Below are positions 2,597 to 20,904 of a DNA stretch of 22,526 nucleotides, in pieces. The stretch lies in the IMG/VR virus record IMGVR_UViG_3300034418_001056, positions 1 to 22,526 of that record; one strand, written 5' to 3'. The notes beneath the pieces were generated by a model that saw only the letters and a list, made by a program, of their open reading frames with translations, was not told where the DNA came from and made no database searches. Source of the DNA: a virus. Positions within the stretch are counted from its first letter, which is position 1. The number at the start of each line of letters is the position of its first letter. Both the position numbers and the translations under genes were made by a program.

Positions 2597-4627
2597 TCAT
2601 TTAACGCCCTCCTTGCCCGTCTTGAGTTCAGGCTGGTCGGCGCCGGCGGCCAATAGCCCCGCGCCACCGATCGACAGCAGGGGTGTCTTCCCTTCCATAA
2701 ACCCTTTAAAGATCGTGTCTTTGTCTCGGCCGGTCAGTTGCGCCGTGACGTCAATACGATCATTGATTAGTTCAACCACAGTTTTGAATTCTGACGCGAG
2801 GCCAGTGCGATCGCCAGAACCGAACCAACCGAGAGACTGAGCTTCGGCCGGAGACACGCCAAGTATCTCAGCAGCTTTGCGATAAATGTCAGAGAATACC
2901 GCATATTCCGTCTGCATATCCTTGCCGGCGATCTTCTGGCTTCCCAATGTGTCGTTCAGCCATGTGGCTGGGTTCAGCCTCGACGGGTCCGCTTTATATT
3001 CCTTGAGATATTCCGGCTTGATAAACCCGTCAGGGATTGACCCCGGCTGTATCTCGTTCATCGCGTCAAGGGCGCCCCTGATCGCATGTGTGTCTACCGT
3101 CACGCCGTCAAAGTTGCCGGCGACGTTCTCAGCAAATGTGTATGGCTTCGGGTTGGTATCATTGCTGATGCCTTGGTTCCCTTTTATATCTTTGAGTAAC
3201 TTGCCGTGTATCCCGCTGTCGCCGATCATCATCGGATATCCATGCTCATTGATGCCGCCACTGCCAGGGCCGACGACCTCGGCTATATCAATACCGGCTT
3301 TGCTTTTTGCCGCCGCCAGTGACGCATTTCTGAGGTTCTGTTCCGTCATCGTGCGGGGGCTGGTCGCTGCATAATAAAGAGCGAAGTCTTTGAGTTGCTG
3401 ACGCGCCGTCGCCTCTGGGATGCCCAGTGCGACTGCCTTATCGACCAATGGTCCGGTATGATAAAAATACTGTGCAGCAGTGCCAAGGTATGGCGTCATT
3501 CTCTCAGCCAGACGCGCCGCGATAAGATCAGTCATATCAGCGACAGGCCGCGCTCGATTTCCAAGCGGAAGTTTAACGCCGTCGGGGGCGCGTGGCACAG
3601 GCACAGGCGTTTGCGCGGCATGTGATTTGTTATACCCCTCCGGCGTTGTATCAAACATATTGTCGCCTGATGGGCTAACGCGGTCGGCCGCCTTTAATTT
3701 CATCTGCTGCGACCGAATATCCAGCACTTCCTTCATCGTCGGGAGAGTGGTGTCAGGGGCTGCCGCGTCGGTAAATTTCATGTCTGGAGTGACAGACATA
3801 TCTGGGGCTAGATCAAATTTACCAACATCCTCGATCGACATCCCCACAGGGATTGGCGACTTGCCATCGGCCCATCGGCTGCTGATCATCGTCACAATAT
3901 CCTGTGCCGCGCCGCTATTCTTTGCCATAGCAACCAAGCTGCCCAATCCATTAACGAGCGGCCCTAAGACAGCCCCCGGCAGCGCCCCGACTAAGCGCGA
4001 GTTGAAGTCTTGGATTGTCGCATTATCACTGGTCACAAAGTCGCTGACGATCTGTGATACTTCCTGTGCCTTGTCGCTAGGGATCATGGCGATCATCTGC
4101 GCGATGCCGTCGGCCTCAGTCTTGCCTGACGTGGCGAAATCACCGATGACACCACCGACAATGTCAGCGACAGCAGGGCCATAACCAGCCATTTTCAGCG
4201 CCCTCATAGCGGGGATCATCCCCGGCAGTGCTTGGCCCAGACCTGACGCCAATTGACCGGGAAGGGTGGTCGGCGGGTCAATGGTGGGGTCTACACCTAC
4301 AGCATCAAGTGCCGCACCACCCATCGCCTCAATCACTGGGGCGCCGGGGATCATCCTATTGATTTCATGCGCCCCGCGAGCCGCGCCATGCAGCAGGCCT
4401 TGCCCCATGTCGGCAATATAATTTACCGCGCTGTCAATCGCACTAGCAGCGTCTGGTGTAACGATGTCTCCTGATATGTCGGGTTTGACGAGGTATTGAT
4501 CAACTAGGCTGGGCGGCGCTGCATAACGCACCATGCCATCCCTGCCACGCTGTAATGTAAAACCATCCGGCAGACCGTGCTTCTGGTAAGTCAGGCGGTC
4601 GGTATATTCTTGGGTCAGGTCGGTCAT
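2597..4627 (-). CDS. Probable ejected virion protein (676 aa) with C-terminal HhH-GPD-like region
   Basis: The start at 4627 overlaps the stop of the gp15-like gene (ATGA), indicating coupled translation. The N-terminal 240 residues hold several Gly/Ala-rich hydrophobic stretches (about 75-160 and 215-235), consistent with membrane contact after ejection. Residues 416-431 (ALYYAATSPRTMTEQN) and 495-520 (PYTFAENVAG... then VDTHAIRGAL) resemble phage proteins of the DUF7178 type, as I recall that family. The VDTHxxR at 511-517 matches the motif that carries the catalytic Asp of HhH-GPD DNA glycosylases such as endonuclease III (VDTHIFRV). The gene lies between the gp15-like and gp16-like genes, so delivery with the genome is likely. 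Enzymatic activity is only inferred, and a clear helix-hairpin-helix is not obvious by eye. Confidence 0.7.
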   Translation of the reverse strand: MTDLTQEYTDRLTYQKHGLPDGFTLQRGRDGMVRYAAPPSLVDQYLVKPDISGDIVTPDAASAIDSAVNYIADMGQGLLHGAARGAHEINRMIPGAPVIEAMGGAALDAVGVDPTIDPPTTLPGQLASGLGQALPGMIPAMRALKMAGYGPAVADIVGGVIGDFATSGKTEADGIAQMIAMIPSDKAQEVSQIVSDFVTSDNATIQDFNSRLVGALPGAVLGPLVNGLGSLVAMAKNSGAAQDIVTMISSRWADGKSPIPVGMSIEDVGKFDLAPDMSVTPDMKFTDAAAPDTTLPTMKEVLDIRSQQMKLKAADRVSPSGDNMFDTTPEGYNKSHAAQTPVPVPRAPDGVKLPLGNRARPVADMTDLIAARLAERMTPYLGTAAQYFYHTGPLVDKAVALGIPEATARQQLKDFALYYAATSPRTMTEQNLRNASLAAAKSKAGIDIAEVVGPGSGGINEHGYPMMIGDSGIHGKLLKDIKGNQGISNDTNPKPYTFAENVAGNFDGVTVDTHAIRGALDAMNEIQPGSIPDGFIKPEYLKEYKADPSRLNPATWLNDTLGSQKIAGKDMQTEYAVFSDIYRKAAEILGVSPAEAQSLGWFGSGDRTGLASEFKTVVELINDRIDVTAQLTGRDKDTIFKGFMEGKTPLLSIGGAGLLAAGADQPELKTGKEGVK

Positions 4628-6945: not shown

Positions 6946-9144
6946 TTATGCTCCCGCGCTTACACGATACTCTAATCCGAGTACCGTAAATTTAAGGGGC
7001 GTTAACTGCCCGATCGACACCGCAGCATCTTGGGAAAATCCCTGTATGCTATGCAGCGTTTTTATGCCTGTGAACTCAGCCACCGGGTCGCCCAGCAATG
7101 ACACGTCAAATTCCCTGAACGGGATGTCGATATTGTTGATCGTCAGAGACTGCGTACTGTCGCAAATCACGTCAACGCGAAGGACGCGACGTTTCATCCC
7201 TTGTCGAGTGCCGCCGGCCTGGCGCGGATCGACTGGCATCGTCTGAACCGTCACCGTGTAATTTAGGCCCAATTGATAGCTGGACGTCGAAGCGCGGGGG
7301 AATGTCAGGTCGCCGGATGCATCCATCGTCTGCTCGACCTGCACCGCGCCATCAAGAAGCAGTTGCACATCCTCTAGCGCCAGGTGATTGCCGGCGATGG
7401 ATGACGCCACACCACCGGCAACCGCGCTGTCCAACGTGTACGATGAATTGAAGGCCTCAAGCATATAAGTATCGACGGAATTGATGACCCGCTTAACGAC
7501 AGCGTAGATCGTGTCGATATCCACAGAGACATCGATGAATGTGCCGTCCGTTATAAACTCGGAAGCGGCGACCACATTCTGTGATCTCAACAGCGTGTAG
7601 GCCGTCATGGTGCCGCCGTCACCATTAACAATGAGCAGCAAGTCGCCCTCATCAGTCGATGTTGCCTTCCGCAGAGCCATCCGCGTCGGCGTCTTGAGAA
7701 GATGCGATGATAACACTGATACCCGCGCAGACACATAAGTTTGCTGGGCATCGGTATAGACAAATTCGTTTAACGCTCTGCCCTGGCGTTGGATATAAAG
7801 TGTTCCGCTATCCAGACCTTGAACGCCCACACCTTCCTTAGTGCCATTGCGCGATGCAAGACGGACGACGAAGTTTGACGGCGTAATAGGTTCAAGCGTG
7901 GTCTGCGGGACATAAAATTCACCACCGGTAGTCAAAAATTGCAAGTCGCGTCCAGAGAAGATTTCGACAACAGCGTTTAACTGGTTGGTATCGATCGTCG
8001 CCTCAACTGCGGCGTCGTCCAATCCCTCGCCCTGGTCGTGATTGAAGAACTCGCCGACGCGGGATCCCCACACGGTAGATGGCAACGCCTTCGACCCGCC
8101 GTGATATAGCCGACCTTCATGGAATGTCGCAGTGCGGGGCCAGCCGCGCAGCGTTGACCAGGCGTCCTCGTAGCCGCTCTCCAGTTCCCAATCACCTGAC
8201 GCAATCGCAGATGTGTCAAAGAACGGCACTTCGACGTAGGCCTTGACGACCGTCGCCGACGTGAACTCAACGATGCGAGCACGGCCAAAATTCACGGTAT
8301 TATTGACGTATTGACCTACATCACTATCGACTGTGAATGTCGATGTATTGTCGGGTGTCGTCGTCCACGCAACAGATACTGTCGCCACCTTGGTCGCGCC
8401 GACATAATCGGAAATAATGCGCCTCTGGCCCTCGCCAGTGCCGCCGGTGATCAGGATGCCGGCGCCATTATAAATATCATCAGTCGCCACCGCGCCGGCA
8501 TCTAGCGTGATAGTCGATGCCGCCCCAGCTTGCGCCGTATTTGACCGGCCCTCATGGAAGGTAGCCGCACCTGCTGTCAGAGTGACGTTGCCATCAATGG
8601 CAGATGGCGTCAGTGTCGTCGCCGGGTTCGTCGTCGTTACTGTAAAGGCATACTTTGGCAGGGTGTCGAACGTCACATCGCTGATCGTCCAATCGGTATC
8701 TGTCGCGCCGCGCACGATCTTTTTCGGGGAGATATCTTCTTGCACGATGATCAGCGTGTCGGCCGACTGCACCCATCGCATCGTCGGCAAGACAGCCGAC
8801 GTGACGCCGGTGGTCGTCAGGTAGTCATTGCCGCCGCCATTGATCGCAGTCTGCAGCACCTTGTTTTTGTAGATGTACATCCGCTCATTGGTAAACAGCA
8901 GCATATAACTGTCGCTGATCGAAAACTCGAAAGGCACCAGACGGACACCATCGGCCGGCGAACCACCAATCGTCCCGATATACTGCAGACCGGGGCGCCG
9001 GGTGATGCCACCTTGCGGCTGGATGATCACATTCTTTGCCGACGCCAGCGCCTTGTAATACTGCTCGAGGTCAAGCCGCGCTCGCAGTTTCGGGTCAATT
9101 TCGCCGGATGTGAAATCGGTCTGGATGTTTAATGTGCGGCTCAT
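6946..9144 (-). CDS. Tail tubular protein B, gp12-like (732 aa)
   Basis: The N-terminus (MSRTLNIQTDFTSGEIDPKL, then KNVIIQPQGGITRRPGLQYI) is the characteristic opening of the podovirus tail tube/nozzle protein: a 'GE.P.L..R.D...Y..g...l.N....pqGg..rRPG' pattern. Length is close to T7 gp12 (794 aa). The protein forms the distal part of the short tail through which DNA leaves. The rest is beta-rich (many Thr, Val, Asp), with segments such as RLYHGGSKALPSTVWGSRVG that belong to the same family signature. The start at 9144 overlaps the stop of the tail tubular A gene (ATGA). Confidence 0.93.
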   Translation of the reverse strand: MSRTLNIQTDFTSGEIDPKLRARLDLEQYYKALASAKNVIIQPQGGITRRPGLQYIGTIGGSPADGVRLVPFEFSISDSYMLLFTNERMYIYKNKVLQTAINGGGNDYLTTTGVTSAVLPTMRWVQSADTLIIVQEDISPKKIVRGATDTDWTISDVTFDTLPKYAFTVTTTNPATTLTPSAIDGNVTLTAGAATFHEGRSNTAQAGAASTITLDAGAVATDDIYNGAGILITGGTGEGQRRIISDYVGATKVATVSVAWTTTPDNTSTFTVDSDVGQYVNNTVNFGRARIVEFTSATVVKAYVEVPFFDTSAIASGDWELESGYEDAWSTLRGWPRTATFHEGRLYHGGSKALPSTVWGSRVGEFFNHDQGEGLDDAAVEATIDTNQLNAVVEIFSGRDLQFLTTGGEFYVPQTTLEPITPSNFVVRLASRNGTKEGVGVQGLDSGTLYIQRQGRALNEFVYTDAQQTYVSARVSVLSSHLLKTPTRMALRKATSTDEGDLLLIVNGDGGTMTAYTLLRSQNVVAASEFITDGTFIDVSVDIDTIYAVVKRVINSVDTYMLEAFNSSYTLDSAVAGGVASSIAGNHLALEDVQLLLDGAVQVEQTMDASGDLTFPRASTSSYQLGLNYTVTVQTMPVDPRQAGGTRQGMKRRVLRVDVICDSTQSLTINNIDIPFREFDVSLLGDPVAEFTGIKTLHSIQGFSQDAAVSIGQLTPLKFTVLGLEYRVSAGA

Positions 9145-17655: not shown

Positions 17656-18150
17656 TTATTCCACCCCTTGTACCGGCACTGGCGGCGCATCACCAGCCGC
17701 CCCGACTGCAGCGATCATCGCCGCCATCTCATCATCACGATGGCGTTGATCCACTGGCCGCATGAAGATGGCGTGTGTCTGCGCCTTGCCGTACTTGTGC
17801 CTTGGCCTCGGCGCCTTGCACATATAGCCGAGATCTCTAAGGCCTCGGACTGCCCAACTGACAGTCTTGGATGGCATCCCAGTGTCGCGGCATATCCTTG
17901 CCTGGCTGACCCACGTTCTGCCGCTCTTGTCCCGATACATGCAATAGGCGGCCAGCACTCTGAACATGGCATGGGTCAGTCTTGCGTCACAGATCGCCAT
18001 CACTGGTGTCAATGCGATGACCCGCTCATCCAGTGCCTTCTTCACATTGCCCTCAGTAAAAGCCACTGGCACCACCTTAAAATCGACATCAGAAGGGGAT
18101 AGGGTCGTTGAGGTTGTCCTGAGTTTGCCTGATTTCTTCGATGTGGGCAT
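17656..18150 (-). CDS. Winged-helix DNA-binding protein (164 aa)
   Basis: The ATG at 18150 (MPTSKKSGK) is preferred over the longer open frame because GGAG lies 9 nt upstream and the longer part translates to implausible sequence inside the preceding gene. Residues 60-115 hold a helix LTHAMFRVLAAYCMYRDKSG, then WVSQARICRDTGMPSKTVSWAVRGLRDLGY. This is a helix-turn-helix with a wing of the type seen in phage replication-initiation or regulatory proteins ('w.s...iA...g.s..tv...i..L...G'). It may bind the repeat cluster upstream of its operon neighbour or regulate the late genes. It overlaps the preceding gene by 62 bp, which is long for this genome. The C-terminus is Ala/Pro/Val rich. Confidence 0.72.
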   Translation of the reverse strand: MPTSKKSGKLRTTSTTLSPSDVDFKVVPVAFTEGNVKKALDERVIALTPVMAICDARLTHAMFRVLAAYCMYRDKSGRTWVSQARICRDTGMPSKTVSWAVRGLRDLGYMCKAPRPRHKYGKAQTHAIFMRPVDQRHRDDEMAAMIAAVGAAGDAPPVPVQGVE

Positions 18151-18655
18151 TTGGGAAGGCTCCTTTTGCAAATTGTACAACGGGCGCAGACCGCTCAAGC
18201 ATTGCGATGATACGCCCAATCTCCTGTAAATGGTAGACTGCACCGGTGACCCCGTTCTTTTGCAGGCTGATGGCATCAGCGAGTGTCTGGACGACACTGA
18301 ACGAATTGCCCTGATCATCCTCGGCGACCCACACCTCGGCGACAATCTTGCGATGACCGCCGGCGGTGGCTTCGGCATCGAGTGCTTGCCACGCCCGACA
18401 CATCACCTTCGCCCGTTTGACGACCTCGTCAGGATCCTGTGCCTCGATGGCGGCATTCAGCTTCTCCCTGGCCGCCCCGAACTTTGCCGCAGTCTCGACC
18501 GACACCAGCCGCTCCAATCTGCCGACGCCCCACTTGCATTCCATCTCGTTGGCGATCTGGTCGAGCGGCTGCAGGGCCGAGTAGATGATGCCGGCATCGA
18601 CGTCACCGACGACGAGTGGATTAGTGATTGGGTCGGGTTTCTTAATATCCTTCAC
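18089..18655 (-). CDS. Hypothetical phage protein with SSB-like C-terminal tip (188 aa)
   Basis: The GTG at 18655 is chosen because GGGGG lies 5 nt upstream; an in-frame TTG at 18667 has no such site. The segment LDQIANEMECKWGVGRLERL is followed by a helix with AAKFGAAREKLNAAIEA, and then VVKRAKVMCRAWQALDAEA. I recall similar proteins in phages of alphaproteobacteria, without known function. The last residues NDPIPF resemble the DDDIPF tip with which bacterial SSB recruits partner proteins. It follows the primase-helicase gene and the TGCAG cluster, so a role in DNA replication or repair is plausible but not shown. Confidence 0.68.
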   Translation of the reverse strand: MKDIKKPDPITNPLVVGDVDAGIIYSALQPLDQIANEMECKWGVGRLERLVSVETAAKFGAAREKLNAAIEAQDPDEVVKRAKVMCRAWQALDAEATAGGHRKIVAEVWVAEDDQGNSFSVVQTLADAISLQKNGVTGAVYHLQEIGRIIAMLERSAPVVQFAKGAFPNAHIEEIRQTQDNLNDPIPF

Positions 18656-18792
18656 TTTTACCCCCAACTACGGACACTGCATTCTGCATTCTATATAGAG
18701 GAATGCAGTAAATGCAGCGTAGGCCTGCGTTTGTTGCAAATACTGCATTTCCTGTTTTGCAGCTTTTGCAGTGTATGCAGCCGGCATGTAAA
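18656..18792. repeat. Intergenic cluster of TGCAG/CTGCA repeats
   Basis: Between the primase-helicase stop and the next start lie at least eight copies of a TGCAG-type word in both orientations: 18676-18683, 18684-18691, 18701-18708, 18711-18717, 18742-18749, 18755-18762, 18764-18771 and 18774-18780. The second and third form a perfect 8-bp inverted repeat CTGCATTC/GAATGCAG around TATATAGAG. The arrangement resembles binding-site iterons of a replication origin or a multi-site operator. Neither is proven. Confidence 0.75.
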
Positions 18793-20904
18793 TCACCCAT
18801 GATCGACACTCCAAATCCACTCGCCATCACGCCATGCGAACTCACTATCGACCAGCCCATCCAATGCCCGGTTGAACGTCGTCGCCTTGTTTTTGGGGTC
18901 ACCAGATAGCCTTTTATAGACAGCGAAGCGCAGGCTATCCTCACTGACGCATTTGATATTTCCAAATGCTGGCATATGCCGGTGTTCTGCGCTGTCCGTC
19001 GTCATAATATTTGCGAGTTCTTTTAGGACAATTCGCTGGTTCTTGCCTGATGGCTGGGCCTTACGCCCTTTCCGCGCCGGCGCTTCGACGTCGGCGACCA
19101 CGACGCATGACGTGACCTCTTTGTCGCGCTTATTGAGGCCCAGGACGACCTGCTTGAGGCCGAATGGGTATTCTTGACCGCCCTCGAACTCGCGCTGCTT
19201 CTTTACCGCGGCGATCGATACTGTGTCGCCTTCTCTCCTGACCTCGATCTCGGTATCTGTGGCGGCTCTGAGCAGGCTATGGCCTCTAGCCCCTCTGGCC
19301 TGATCCTTGCCGCTGTGGTGGATAAACATGACGTGCGCCCCGGTTTGCTGCCGGATCCGGTCAGAGTTAATGACGATCGCCCCCATATCATCTGGGCTAT
19401 TTTCATTGCCGCCACTTATGGCTCGGCTGAGTGTGTCGATGACGATCAGACCGACAGGGCGTGGCATCTTTTCATTTGCCGCTTTAATACTGTCGATCAA
19501 GCGGGATGTGTCGGCCTCTGGGTCGAGTAGGTTGACTGATGTGGTGATGATGCCGAACGGCGGTATCTCGCCCTGCATTTTGTCTTTGTAGTGGTCGCGG
19601 AATGCAATCATTCGGTTGGTGATGCCGTGCTTTCCCTCGAGTGCCAGGTATATCACGCCAGTCTGGTCTGTTTCCTTGCCGCGCCAAGCCCATCCCATTG
19701 CCGTGTGCAGGGCCAGATCGCAGGCAAAGAATGTCTTGCCGCTGTTGCTTTCACCATAAACCACCGACATCTGGCCGATTCCCAAGGTGTCCTCGACAAA
19801 GTCCTGTGTATCTGTTGAGGCCTCGATGTCGCCGAACCATGTGATGGGGATATGATTGTCGGCGTTGCCGGCGTCCCAATCGCTGTTCTTCTCGGCTTCT
19901 TGTTCCTGTTTGATGATAGTCGCCGCCTTGTGGGCGAGGGTAGGCTCCGGCGCATAACCTTTGCGCCTTGCCCCGTCGATCGCCTCTTGAACCTCGGCGA
20001 TTGTCTGTTGCTGCGTGTAGCCGGGCAGGGTGGTATCGGCGAGGTAGTCCTGTATTGCTTCATCAGTGTGATCTGTGGCGACAAGATGGGCGGTGATGGC
20101 GACCATATTGTGGTGCCAATGATCGCCTTGCAGCATCCTGTCTTTTGCGGCCTGTGCATCGACGCCATTGCGTATGTGCAGGGTATGGTGCTGAACAGCG
20201 TTCGTGGCGCCTGCATGGTCATTTCTGGGCGCTGAGAGTGCCATCTGTGGCGTTACCTGATGCCGGGTGATCTCGCCCAGATTAAACTGCTGCCGGCGAC
20301 CGTGCGGCATATGCAATTCTGTCATCTCGGTCAGCCGCCCCTCTTTCTTGGGCCATGCGACTGAGCCGGGGATACGCATGATGCGGCTTTCGTTCTTACA
20401 AGCTGGGTCACCGTCGAGCAGCGTGGCGACGTGGGCGAGGGCATTCCGCATCAGGGCGTGGTCGCGGATGGGTTCGACTAAGGGTAAATACTTATGTGAT
20501 CTGAGGTGCGGGTGCCGGCCGGTAACAACGGTGATTGGCGCCTCGATGCCGAGTTCCTTCATCTTCGCGGTGGCGGCCGCGCTGGCCCCGTCATCATCGA
20601 AGTCGGCGAACAAGGTGTATAATGCAATGACGTCGGCATCACCACCACGGGAATGCGGCAGGTTGGTGCGGCGCAGGCCGGGTCCAAAGTAGACATTCTG
20701 CCCAGGTGTCGCATTGGTCTGCGCTGCGAAGTCGGCCGCCTCGGCATAATCCTCGACCGGAAACATCCTCGCCTGCTTGGGCGACTTGCTGTCGGGCAGG
20801 GTGTAGGCGATCTCGATCTGCCCATCGATCATGACATGGCTGTATAGCCGCTCGAAAAAGTCGGCGATGACCTGTGGATCCGGTTGATGTGCGTGTGCCA
20901 ACAT
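18793..20904 (-). CDS. Primase-helicase: PrimPol-like N-terminus, RepA-type ATPase (703 aa)
   Basis: Residues 90-190 carry a primase-like domain of the RepB/PrimPol type. The acidic motif LFADFDDDG is at 98-106, VVTGRHPHLRSHKYLPLVEP at 126-145, and the motif NESRIMRIPGSVAWPKKEGR at 171-190. Residues 370-560 form a RecA-fold hexameric helicase of the RepA/AAA_25 type, with Walker A GESNSGKT (384-391), Walker B LIVIDTLSRA (486-495), the HHSGKD sensor (529-534) and GARGHSLLRAATD (538-550). The last 80 residues look like a winged helix. The protein would prime and unwind DNA at the fork. GAGGG lies 5 nt before the ATG at 20904. It follows the candidate ssDNA-binding gene, separated by a long hairpin. 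Confidence 0.93.
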   Translation of the reverse strand: MLAHAHQPDPQVIADFFERLYSHVMIDGQIEIAYTLPDSKSPKQARMFPVEDYAEAADFAAQTNATPGQNVYFGPGLRRTNLPHSRGGDADVIALYTLFADFDDDGASAAATAKMKELGIEAPITVVTGRHPHLRSHKYLPLVEPIRDHALMRNALAHVATLLDGDPACKNESRIMRIPGSVAWPKKEGRLTEMTELHMPHGRRQQFNLGEITRHQVTPQMALSAPRNDHAGATNAVQHHTLHIRNGVDAQAAKDRMLQGDHWHHNMVAITAHLVATDHTDEAIQDYLADTTLPGYTQQQTIAEVQEAIDGARRKGYAPEPTLAHKAATIIKQEQEAEKNSDWDAGNADNHIPITWFGDIEASTDTQDFVEDTLGIGQMSVVYGESNSGKTFFACDLALHTAMGWAWRGKETDQTGVIYLALEGKHGITNRMIAFRDHYKDKMQGEIPPFGIITTSVNLLDPEADTSRLIDSIKAANEKMPRPVGLIVIDTLSRAISGGNENSPDDMGAIVINSDRIRQQTGAHVMFIHHSGKDQARGARGHSLLRAATDTEIEVRREGDTVSIAAVKKQREFEGGQEYPFGLKQVVLGLNKRDKEVTSCVVVADVEAPARKGRKAQPSGKNQRIVLKELANIMTTDSAEHRHMPAFGNIKCVSEDSLRFAVYKRLSGDPKNKATTFNRALDGLVDSEFAWRDGEWIWSVDHG

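Follow-up and report, generated by a model that had tools for sequence, protein, structure and literature searches.

Repeat cluster downstream of the primase-helicase gene

The window, the whole stretch of DNA analysed here, is an incomplete virus record of 22,526 bases (IMG/VR IMGVR_UViG_3300034418_001056, positions 1 to 22,526). Its matched structural genes are those of a terminase, a capsid protein and a head-tail connector. The primase-helicase gene (20904-18793), a 125 bp intergenic stretch, a 192-aa open reading frame (18667-18089) and the gene of an HTH_36 protein follow one another on the minus strand, in agreement with the flanking genes named in an initial annotation of this DNA. The intergenic stretch has a G+C content of 44.8%, compared with 55.9% for the window, and contains short repeated words around a TATATAG core. 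The features are listed below; word copies and the palindrome are read directly from the sequence.

18793-20904, minus strand: primase-helicase of 703 aa, with a weak N-terminal AEP primase match, a RepA/AAA_25 hexameric-helicase domain and a predicted C-terminal winged helix (Pfam, profile and Foldseek matches)
18793-19044, minus strand: segment encoding the C-terminal winged-helix domain (from residue 31 of the fragment onwards), the putative word reader (AlphaFold2 model; word-tracking residues in H80-96)
18773-18780, plus strand: word copy GTATGCAG
18764-18771, plus strand: word copy TTTTGCAG, 9 bp from its neighbours
18755-18762, plus strand: word copy TTTTGCAG
18743-18749, minus strand: word copy AATGCAG
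18734-18739, no strand: degenerate copy TTGCAA
18725-18731, minus strand: degenerate copy CTGCGTT, judged by eye
18711-18717, plus strand: word copy AATGCAG, outer copy of the pair that flanks the palindrome towards the primase-helicase gene
18702-18708, plus strand: word copy AATGCAG, inner member of the same pair (9 bp spacing)
18690-18699, no strand: palindrome TCTATATAGA, counterpart of the CTW2-4AG hairpin of the relatives, with only one further base pair in the window
18684-18690, minus strand: word copy AATGCAG, inner copy of the pair that flanks the palindrome on the side away from the primase-helicase gene
18677-18683, minus strand: word copy AATGCAG, outer copy of the latter pair (7 bp spacing)
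18089-18667, minus strand: 192-aa protein without assigned function; a homologue directly follows the repeat site in CRP-811-group phages (BLASTP E 1e-14 against CRP811_9)
17656-18378, minus strand: HTH_36 / O-like protein, the binder favoured in the initial annotation; the frame starts at 18378 or later (Pfam HTH_36 E 4.2e-7; phrog_270 E 2.7e-6)

The initial annotation had pointed to a crowding of TGCAG/CTGCA words at this site, and the crowding is real. Eight such words lie within 104 bp (18677-18780), accompanied by a ninth TGCA within TTGCAA and by the degenerate CTGCGTT. The largest cluster in the whole window numbers eight (110 bp span), whereas 1000 dinucleotide shuffles of the window gave maxima of two to six in 999 cases and seven in one, and 5000 shuffles of the local 200 bp never exceeded five. 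The word is not exclusive to the site, which holds 6 of the 30 copies of ATGCAG and 5 of the 9 copies of AATGCAG in the window. The perfect inverted pair described earlier is exact and consists of CTGCATTC (18684-18691), TATATAGAG (18692-18700) and GAATGCAG (18701-18708). Three further properties were absent from the initial annotation: the core of the pair is part of a CTATATAG palindrome, neighbouring words are mostly 7-9 bp apart (spacings of 9, 9, 14, 9, 22, 9, 19 and 7), and the primase-helicase has a predicted winged helix of its own.

Predicted domains of the primase-helicase

The primase-like, helicase and winged-helix parts of the primase-helicase are all contained in one open reading frame of 703 aa. 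The sole Pfam match of the protein is AAA_25 (E 1.1e-32), and no Toprim match was found in Pfam at E <= 0.1. The best profile match of the helicase domain among solved structures is RSF1010 RepA (1g8y, E 3.2e-6), which Foldseek ranks eleventh by E-value, after DnaB, KaiC and RAD51 chains, with a TM-score of 0.74 normalised by the target. The N-terminal part has a weak profile match to the AEP domain of PrimPol (6zp9, E 0.0039). The C-terminal 113 residues are predicted by AlphaFold2 to form a winged helix with a mean pLDDT of 89.2 and, in the numbering of this fragment, the order H31-45, E50-54, E58-64, H65-73, H80-96, E100-103, E106-109. Foldseek matches of the winged helix are weak (best E 0.014, none at 0.001) and include many winged-helix domains, among them those of cullin WHB, CRP and histone H1. 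The full-length model has a pTM of 0.47, and therefore the relative arrangement of the domains cannot be taken from it.

Conservation of the site in named phages

The two contigs nearest to the window hardly differ from it, and relatives this close (L002-L004) are uninformative on the conservation of the repeats. Roseobacter phages CRP-811, CRP-823, CRP-821 and CRP-831 share the order of single-stranded DNA-binding protein (SSB), primase-helicase, repeat stretch and 190-aa homologue. The words differ, being TTTGTAGT in CRP-811 and CRP-823 and TTTATACA in CRP-821 and CRP-831. The spacings are nearly equal, at 10, 48, 9, 9, 12, 18, 9, 21, 7 and 15 in CRP-811 and 10, 48, 9, 10, 12, 17, 9, 21 and 8 in CRP-831. 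All 11 copies of TTTGTAG in the CRP-811 genome and 10 of the 11 copies of TTTATAC in that of CRP-831 are within the site. Across the window, CRP-811 and CRP-831, neighbouring words are mostly 7-10 bp apart and form phased direct repeats beside the gene. Site and layout are thus kept among relatives, while the letters of the word are replaced in the more distant ones. The initial annotation would have taken a lack of repeat conservation in close relatives as a refutation; such a test would mislead, because the nearest contigs are near-identical and distant relatives keep the layout but swap the letters.

A cluster is also present in Rhizobium phages 16-3 and RHph_X2_25, Salicola phage CGphi29 and Vibrio phage 1.076.O. 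Caulobacter phage RW, Microcystis phage Mae-JY30, BFK20 and mycobacteriophage Bernardo have none when words are counted at the stop codon. A Prim-Pol/AAA_25 protein has been described in CRP-810-type phages, in a source whose available text does not contain the word 'repeat' (PMC11288001).

Survey of the primase-helicase family

Loci were collected from viral-contig searches, a bacterial-genome search and named phage records, giving 405 sequences including the window; the large searches contributed the best 80 of 349, at least 550, 510, 395 and 107 relatives. The primase-helicase was found in 402 of the 405 sequences and its stop codon in 390, and 260 distinct loci have at least 250 bp downstream. 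These loci are best-scoring relatives that share ancestry, a non-random sample, in which 214 of 260 have at least six copies of a hexamer within 300 bp at the 3' end of the primase-helicase gene. Among control windows elsewhere in the same loci, 169 of 10,391 reach at least six copies of one hexamer per 300 bp, and in 202 of the 260 all control windows of the locus score below the site. The words of the 214 loci fall into 46 clusters, so that the layout is common and the words differ; similarity between words was scored from hexamer counts, for which cut-offs had to be chosen, and some distinct words were merged by single linkage.

The remaining 46 loci have no cluster by the count at the stop codon. 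In 31 of them, at least six copies occur in some 300 bp window between -3.5 and +3 kb, a good part of which may be due to chance since many windows were tried. Seven of the 46 were read individually, and in all but L389 the reading frame runs past the winged helix through the repeats. The words are there translated as a tail of the protein, in five loci from bacterial genomes (L332, L350, L358, L379, L397) and one viral contig (L321). The site can also be displaced: L093 (MW202711.1) carries a GGGACA cluster that contains a CTCTATATAGAG core and lies some 1.4-1.5 kb away from the primase-helicase gene.

When the count is anchored on matches to a winged-helix profile, clusters are found in 195 of 217 loci, the other 22 lacking one within 300 bp of that domain, and in 26 of the 43 loci that lack a profile match; the profile was built from 70 C-termini, all from loci with clusters, and therefore this comparison leans towards an association. 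As clusters are present in those 26 loci, other reader domains must exist there. Loci with a cluster and no profile match include L084, L091, L336, L349, L366, L367, L375, L384 and L400. Four of these (L367, L375, L384 and L400) have a different short segment, for example VYRAL or IYRAM, which suggests other reader domains. A search of the fetched loci with the winged-helix profile (E <= 0.01) returned six reading frames besides the recorded primase-helicases. Four are primase-helicases or cut pieces of them (L001, L087, L406, L407), and two are separate frames beside the primase-helicase, with a GGGACA cluster close by, which looks like a split gene (L177, L277). None of the fetched loci has a nuclease-fused (Odn-like) winged helix at this threshold.

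Hairpin and arrangement of the words

Most of the clusters contain a hairpin. A CTW2-4AG core with at least two further paired bases is present in 156 of the 214 clusters, compared with 19 of 1,712 control windows and 37 of 1,070 shuffles, and with at least four further paired bases in 106 of 214, compared with 1 of 1,712 and 3 of 1,070. The CTATATAG palindrome of the window has one further pair, fewer than the two used here, and is outside the 156. In 99 representative hairpin loci, the words are concentrated about 12 and 21 bp from the hairpin on one side and 10 and 18 bp on the other, and the nearest words across the hairpin are oppositely oriented in 88 of the 90 loci that have words on both sides. 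Perfect even palindromes were also tried as the common core; their signal was weak, since the most frequent cores (CTTTAG, CTAAAG) are imperfect palindromes, and the CTW2-4AG test took their place.

Word identity follows the winged helix

Covariation was computed over the 214 loci with clusters, the other 46 being excluded. Among these sequences, the identity of the word follows the C-terminal winged helix far better than the primase-helicase core. The partial correlation of the word with the C-terminus given the core is 0.37, and that with the core given the C-terminus is 0.003. All 197 pairs with at least 90% identity in both core and C-terminus have the same word. Within 10 clusters of similar cores (125 loci), word and C-terminus correlate with r 0.739, compared with at most 0.204 in 2000 permutations, which being made within core clusters lessen but do not remove the effect of kinship.

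Word and C-terminus are physically linked in the DNA, and the next gene was taken as an equally close neighbour to control for linkage. The word follows the C-terminus better than the next gene, although the next gene also has some explanatory value when all pairs are taken: dropping the C-terminus from the comparison costs an R2 of 0.048 and dropping the next gene 0.033 over all 22,791 pairs. The respective losses are 0.038 and 0.016 at a core identity of at least 0.6, 0.105 and 0.000 at 0.7, and 0.251 and 0.015 at 0.8, where the sign for the next gene is negative. At a core identity of at least 0.7, all 27 pairs that combine C-termini at least 90% identical with dissimilar next genes (score ratio < 0.2) share the word, compared with 15% of the 33 pairs in which the next genes are similar (>= 0.6) and the C-termini below 60%. 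Pairs with C-termini 60-80% identical are less tidy, the word being shared in 33%, 64% and 20% with rising similarity of the next gene.

The residues that track the word are concentrated in the predicted recognition helix. Residue 89 differs in 92% of 417 pairs with different words and in 5% of 414 pairs with the same word (C-termini 55-97% identical). At matched C-terminal identity, columns 89, 88 and 86 track the word most strongly, each of them within H80-96; next come 72, 84, 110, 101, 93, 91 and 70, some of which are outside the recognition helix. This comparison used 160 representatives with 141 same-word, 172 different-word and 68 matched pairs per draw, intermediate pairs being excluded. 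Positions 80-92 score above the rest (Mann-Whitney p 2e-4, with columns taken as independent). In distantly related pairs (core identity under 0.60 and C-terminal identity under 0.40), the residues at positions 84, 85, 86, 88 and 89, which were chosen after the matched-identity result and partly on the same loci, are shared at 0.47 in same-word pairs (n=230) and 0.18 in different-word pairs (n=7,641), compared with 0.23 and 0.19 for the other C-terminal columns. Without GGGACA-type words, the distant same-word pairs (n=71) give 0.41 at the five positions and 0.245 in the other columns.

Exchange of the winged helix together with its words

Different words occur in 101 of the 378 pairs of loci with cores at least 90% identical. 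We aligned five different-word pairs from the top of the list and two same-word pairs. In L064/L069, the identity is 0.87-0.99 in the core, 0.37-0.55 in the winged helix and repeats, and 0.86-0.97 beyond; L064/L069 and L070/L066 together span 0.85-1.0, 0.37-0.56 and 0.86-0.97, with outermost blocks at 0.72-0.76. The same drop, in a milder form, is seen in L006/L007 and L243/L240, and in L237/L228 the downstream flank recovers to only 0.70-0.76. The same-word pairs L005/L006 (0.89-1.0 from -203 to +197) and L007/L008 (0.96-1.0 from -212 to +188) have no drop at the winged helix or repeats. Since the drop is confined to the winged helix and repeats, the exchanged unit in the clearest cases is the reading domain with its words. 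The adjacency of reading domain and words in the DNA would allow recombination to exchange them as one cassette, giving each lineage its own address.

The winged helix also changes faster than the core. In the 101 different-word pairs (54 loci, core >= 0.90, picked by word difference), pN/pS falls from 0.63 in the recognition helix to 0.41 in helix 2, 0.29 elsewhere in the winged helix and 0.09 in the core; these values are rough because pS is high (0.58). The recognition helix of same-word pairs (n=260) has a pN/pS of 0.06. Positive selection was considered; even in the recognition helix pN/pS stays below 1, which indicates faster change and is no proof of positive selection.

A probable replication origin read by its own helicase

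The cluster at 18677-18780 is probably the replication origin of the phage, where the words would serve as iterons bound by the winged helix at the C-terminus of the primase-helicase. Judging from the compared sequences, an origin with a changeable molecular address is the most likely identity of the site, and the primase-helicase would be its initiator. We hypothesize that several copies of the primase-helicase bind the phased words, and that words facing each other across the CTATATAG palindrome place two rings head to head. The DNA would open at the palindrome, the RepA-type helicase would load itself, and the N-terminal primase would make primers, perhaps at the exposed hairpin. The suggestion of a replication origin in the initial annotation is thus well supported by the comparison, whereas its alternative, an operator for the neighbouring winged-helix protein, gives way to the primase-helicase's own winged helix, which the word follows. 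GC skew, the check proposed there, does not indicate the site in two complete relatives: the detrended cumulative minimum is at 9002 in CRP-811 (site at 4455) and at 8688 in CRP-831 (site at 3950), in both cases near a switch of gene orientation, and GC skew here neither locates nor excludes an origin. The raw minimum in the incomplete window is at 19415.

It is unlikely that the words are an operator through which the primase-helicase regulates expression of its own gene or of the following one, without any origin function. The site is intergenic within a run of genes on the same strand, and the words would be numerous enough for cooperative repression. However, it is located 3' of a gene and not at a gene start, and the stretch 18500-19000 contains no match to a sigma-70-like promoter or an intrinsic terminator, the types searched for. 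The reading frame that runs through the cluster in six prophage or viral loci would be odd for an operator of the next gene, and the hairpin between facing words, with a helicase as putative reader, fits an origin better. The downstream HTH_36 protein is an even less probable reader of the words, whether as operators or as origin sites at which it would load a helicase as lambda O does. Its gene (17656-18378) is two genes away and matches HTH_36 and, weakly, PHROGs of O-like replication initiation proteins (E 2.7e-6 to 4e-4), but no alignment to it was obtained with the gene that comes second after the site in CRP-811. Furthermore, next-gene similarity adds nothing to the explanation of the word at core identities of at least 0.7 and little over all pairs, whereas the primase-helicase C-terminus does contribute at this level. 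CRP-811 has another winged-helix gene elsewhere, CRP811_24.

Repeats and palindromes also mark partition, packaging and recombination sites. A parS-like, packaging or recombination site placed here by chance would share these elements, but the site is tied to the 3' end of the helicase gene and its word follows the helicase's own domain, which makes such an identity very improbable. We consider a structured RNA or a protein-coding repeat the least probable explanation, with hardly any weight. The single strand folds better than its shuffles (DNA parameters, z -4.11) and some relatives translate through the cluster; the folding is, however, explained by the inverted words, and Rfam gave no match at gathering scores. 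Words occur in both orientations, and from CRP-811 to CRP-831 their letters change while the positions stay.

Comparison with known replication systems

In phage lambda, the iterons of the origin are read by the initiator O, and the helicase loader is separate. The window resembles lambda in having putative iterons and a putative initiator, and differs in that the lambda origin is inside the O gene (PMC7157519).

The best analogue is the Rep/ori system of SaPIs, in which the helicase uses its C-terminal domain to recognise iterons located immediately 3' of its gene (PMC7581432). By analogy, the present system would work in this manner with a helicase of the RSF1010-RepA type: a putative initiator helicase with a C-terminal origin-reading domain, short iterons and a candidate origin directly 3' of the gene. 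PICI origins have two iteron sets around an AT-rich region (PMC6092414); words are likewise on both sides of a central region here, in opposite orientation in 88 of 90 loci. SaPI Reps are described as related to DUF927 or Primase_Cterm helicases (PMC7581432), unlike the RepA/AAA_25 domain here. Whereas SaPIs are satellites without structural genes of their own, the window has terminase, capsid and head-tail matches, and unlike in SaPI and PICI origins a CTWWAG hairpin recurs.

The IncQ plasmid RSF1010 has a RepA-type helicase, an AEP-like primase, to which the match here is weak, and iterons (PMC4234260, PMC4538821). Its tasks are divided among RepC, RepA and RepB', with ssi hairpins (PMC4234260, PMC4538821), whereas one polypeptide is present here in place of three separate proteins; the ssiA/ssiB primase hairpins may have a counterpart in the CTWWAG hairpin (156 of 214 loci). 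The pRN1 ORF904 and phage BIP-1 proteins likewise combine primase, helicase and winged helix with an origin directly 3' of the gene, but are described with an SF3 helicase and a large stem-loop without iterons (PMC4234260), unlike the RepA-type helicase and iterons here. In phage P4, the single protein alpha reads repeats by a winged helix, unwinds and primes, and has a Toprim primase (PMC4234260), for which there is no match here.

In Vibrio cholerae PLE, the DNA-reading domain of RepA and the origin also covary and are swapped as a module, and two origin groups are described (PMC8263062), compared with 46 word clusters here. The PLE initiator is of the RepA_N type, for which neither primase nor helicase activity is predicted (PMC7145576). 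An origin-directed nuclease (Odn) can select for reader/origin swapping in PLE (PMC8263062). Two near-identical Gordonia phages differ in the winged-helix part of their initiators, which was interpreted as a domain exchange; the exchanged domain is N-terminal there, and the accessible text does not mention a link to origin words (PMC10684548). By the features compared, the present system would work like those of SaPI, RSF1010, pRN1/BIP-1, PLE and the Gordonia initiators and is a member of none of them. Among open-licence PMC papers, we found no description that combines a phage, a RepA helicase, iterons and a replication origin; an earlier one may exist elsewhere.

A possible family of self-addressed primase-helicases

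A layout comparable to that of SaPIs appears beside a different type of helicase in about two hundred phage and prophage loci. It is possible, and in our estimate just short of probable, that these belong to a widespread phage and prophage family with a self-addressed primase-helicase, in which the recognition helix evolves in step with some ten origin words, through single-site changes or cassette exchange, producing dozens of mutually distinct addresses. The change may be driven by avoidance of cross-talk with co-infecting phages and prophages or by origin-directed nucleases, as with Odn on PLE origins. The pairs of word and helix would then amount to a readable recognition code, and the CTWWAG hairpin would be the site of melting and priming. 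The layout itself would allow candidate origin positions to be assigned in many uncultured phages from sequence alone. The 46 word clusters with their matching recognition helices would form a natural data set on the evolution of protein-DNA specificity, and sets of non-interfering plasmid origins may be possible.

Genes beside the site

The 192-aa protein has no PHROG match at E <= 0.001 and no Pfam match at E <= 0.1. It belongs to a family of about 190 aa with a WGV/WGI..L motif and no Pfam or PHROG match, which sits after the repeat site in the window (18089-18667), the CRP phages, MW202711.1 (L093) and, judged by eye, L009, L014, L064 and L069. In L093, the family member comes after the displaced GGGACA cluster. 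The HTH_36 protein (17656-18378, minus strand), two genes past the site, is a possible second initiator or regulator. A long tandem array of GGCGCCC(C/T)GCAAA-type repeats is present about 5.7 kb upstream of the primase-helicase stop codon in L025 and is unrelated to the origin word of that locus.
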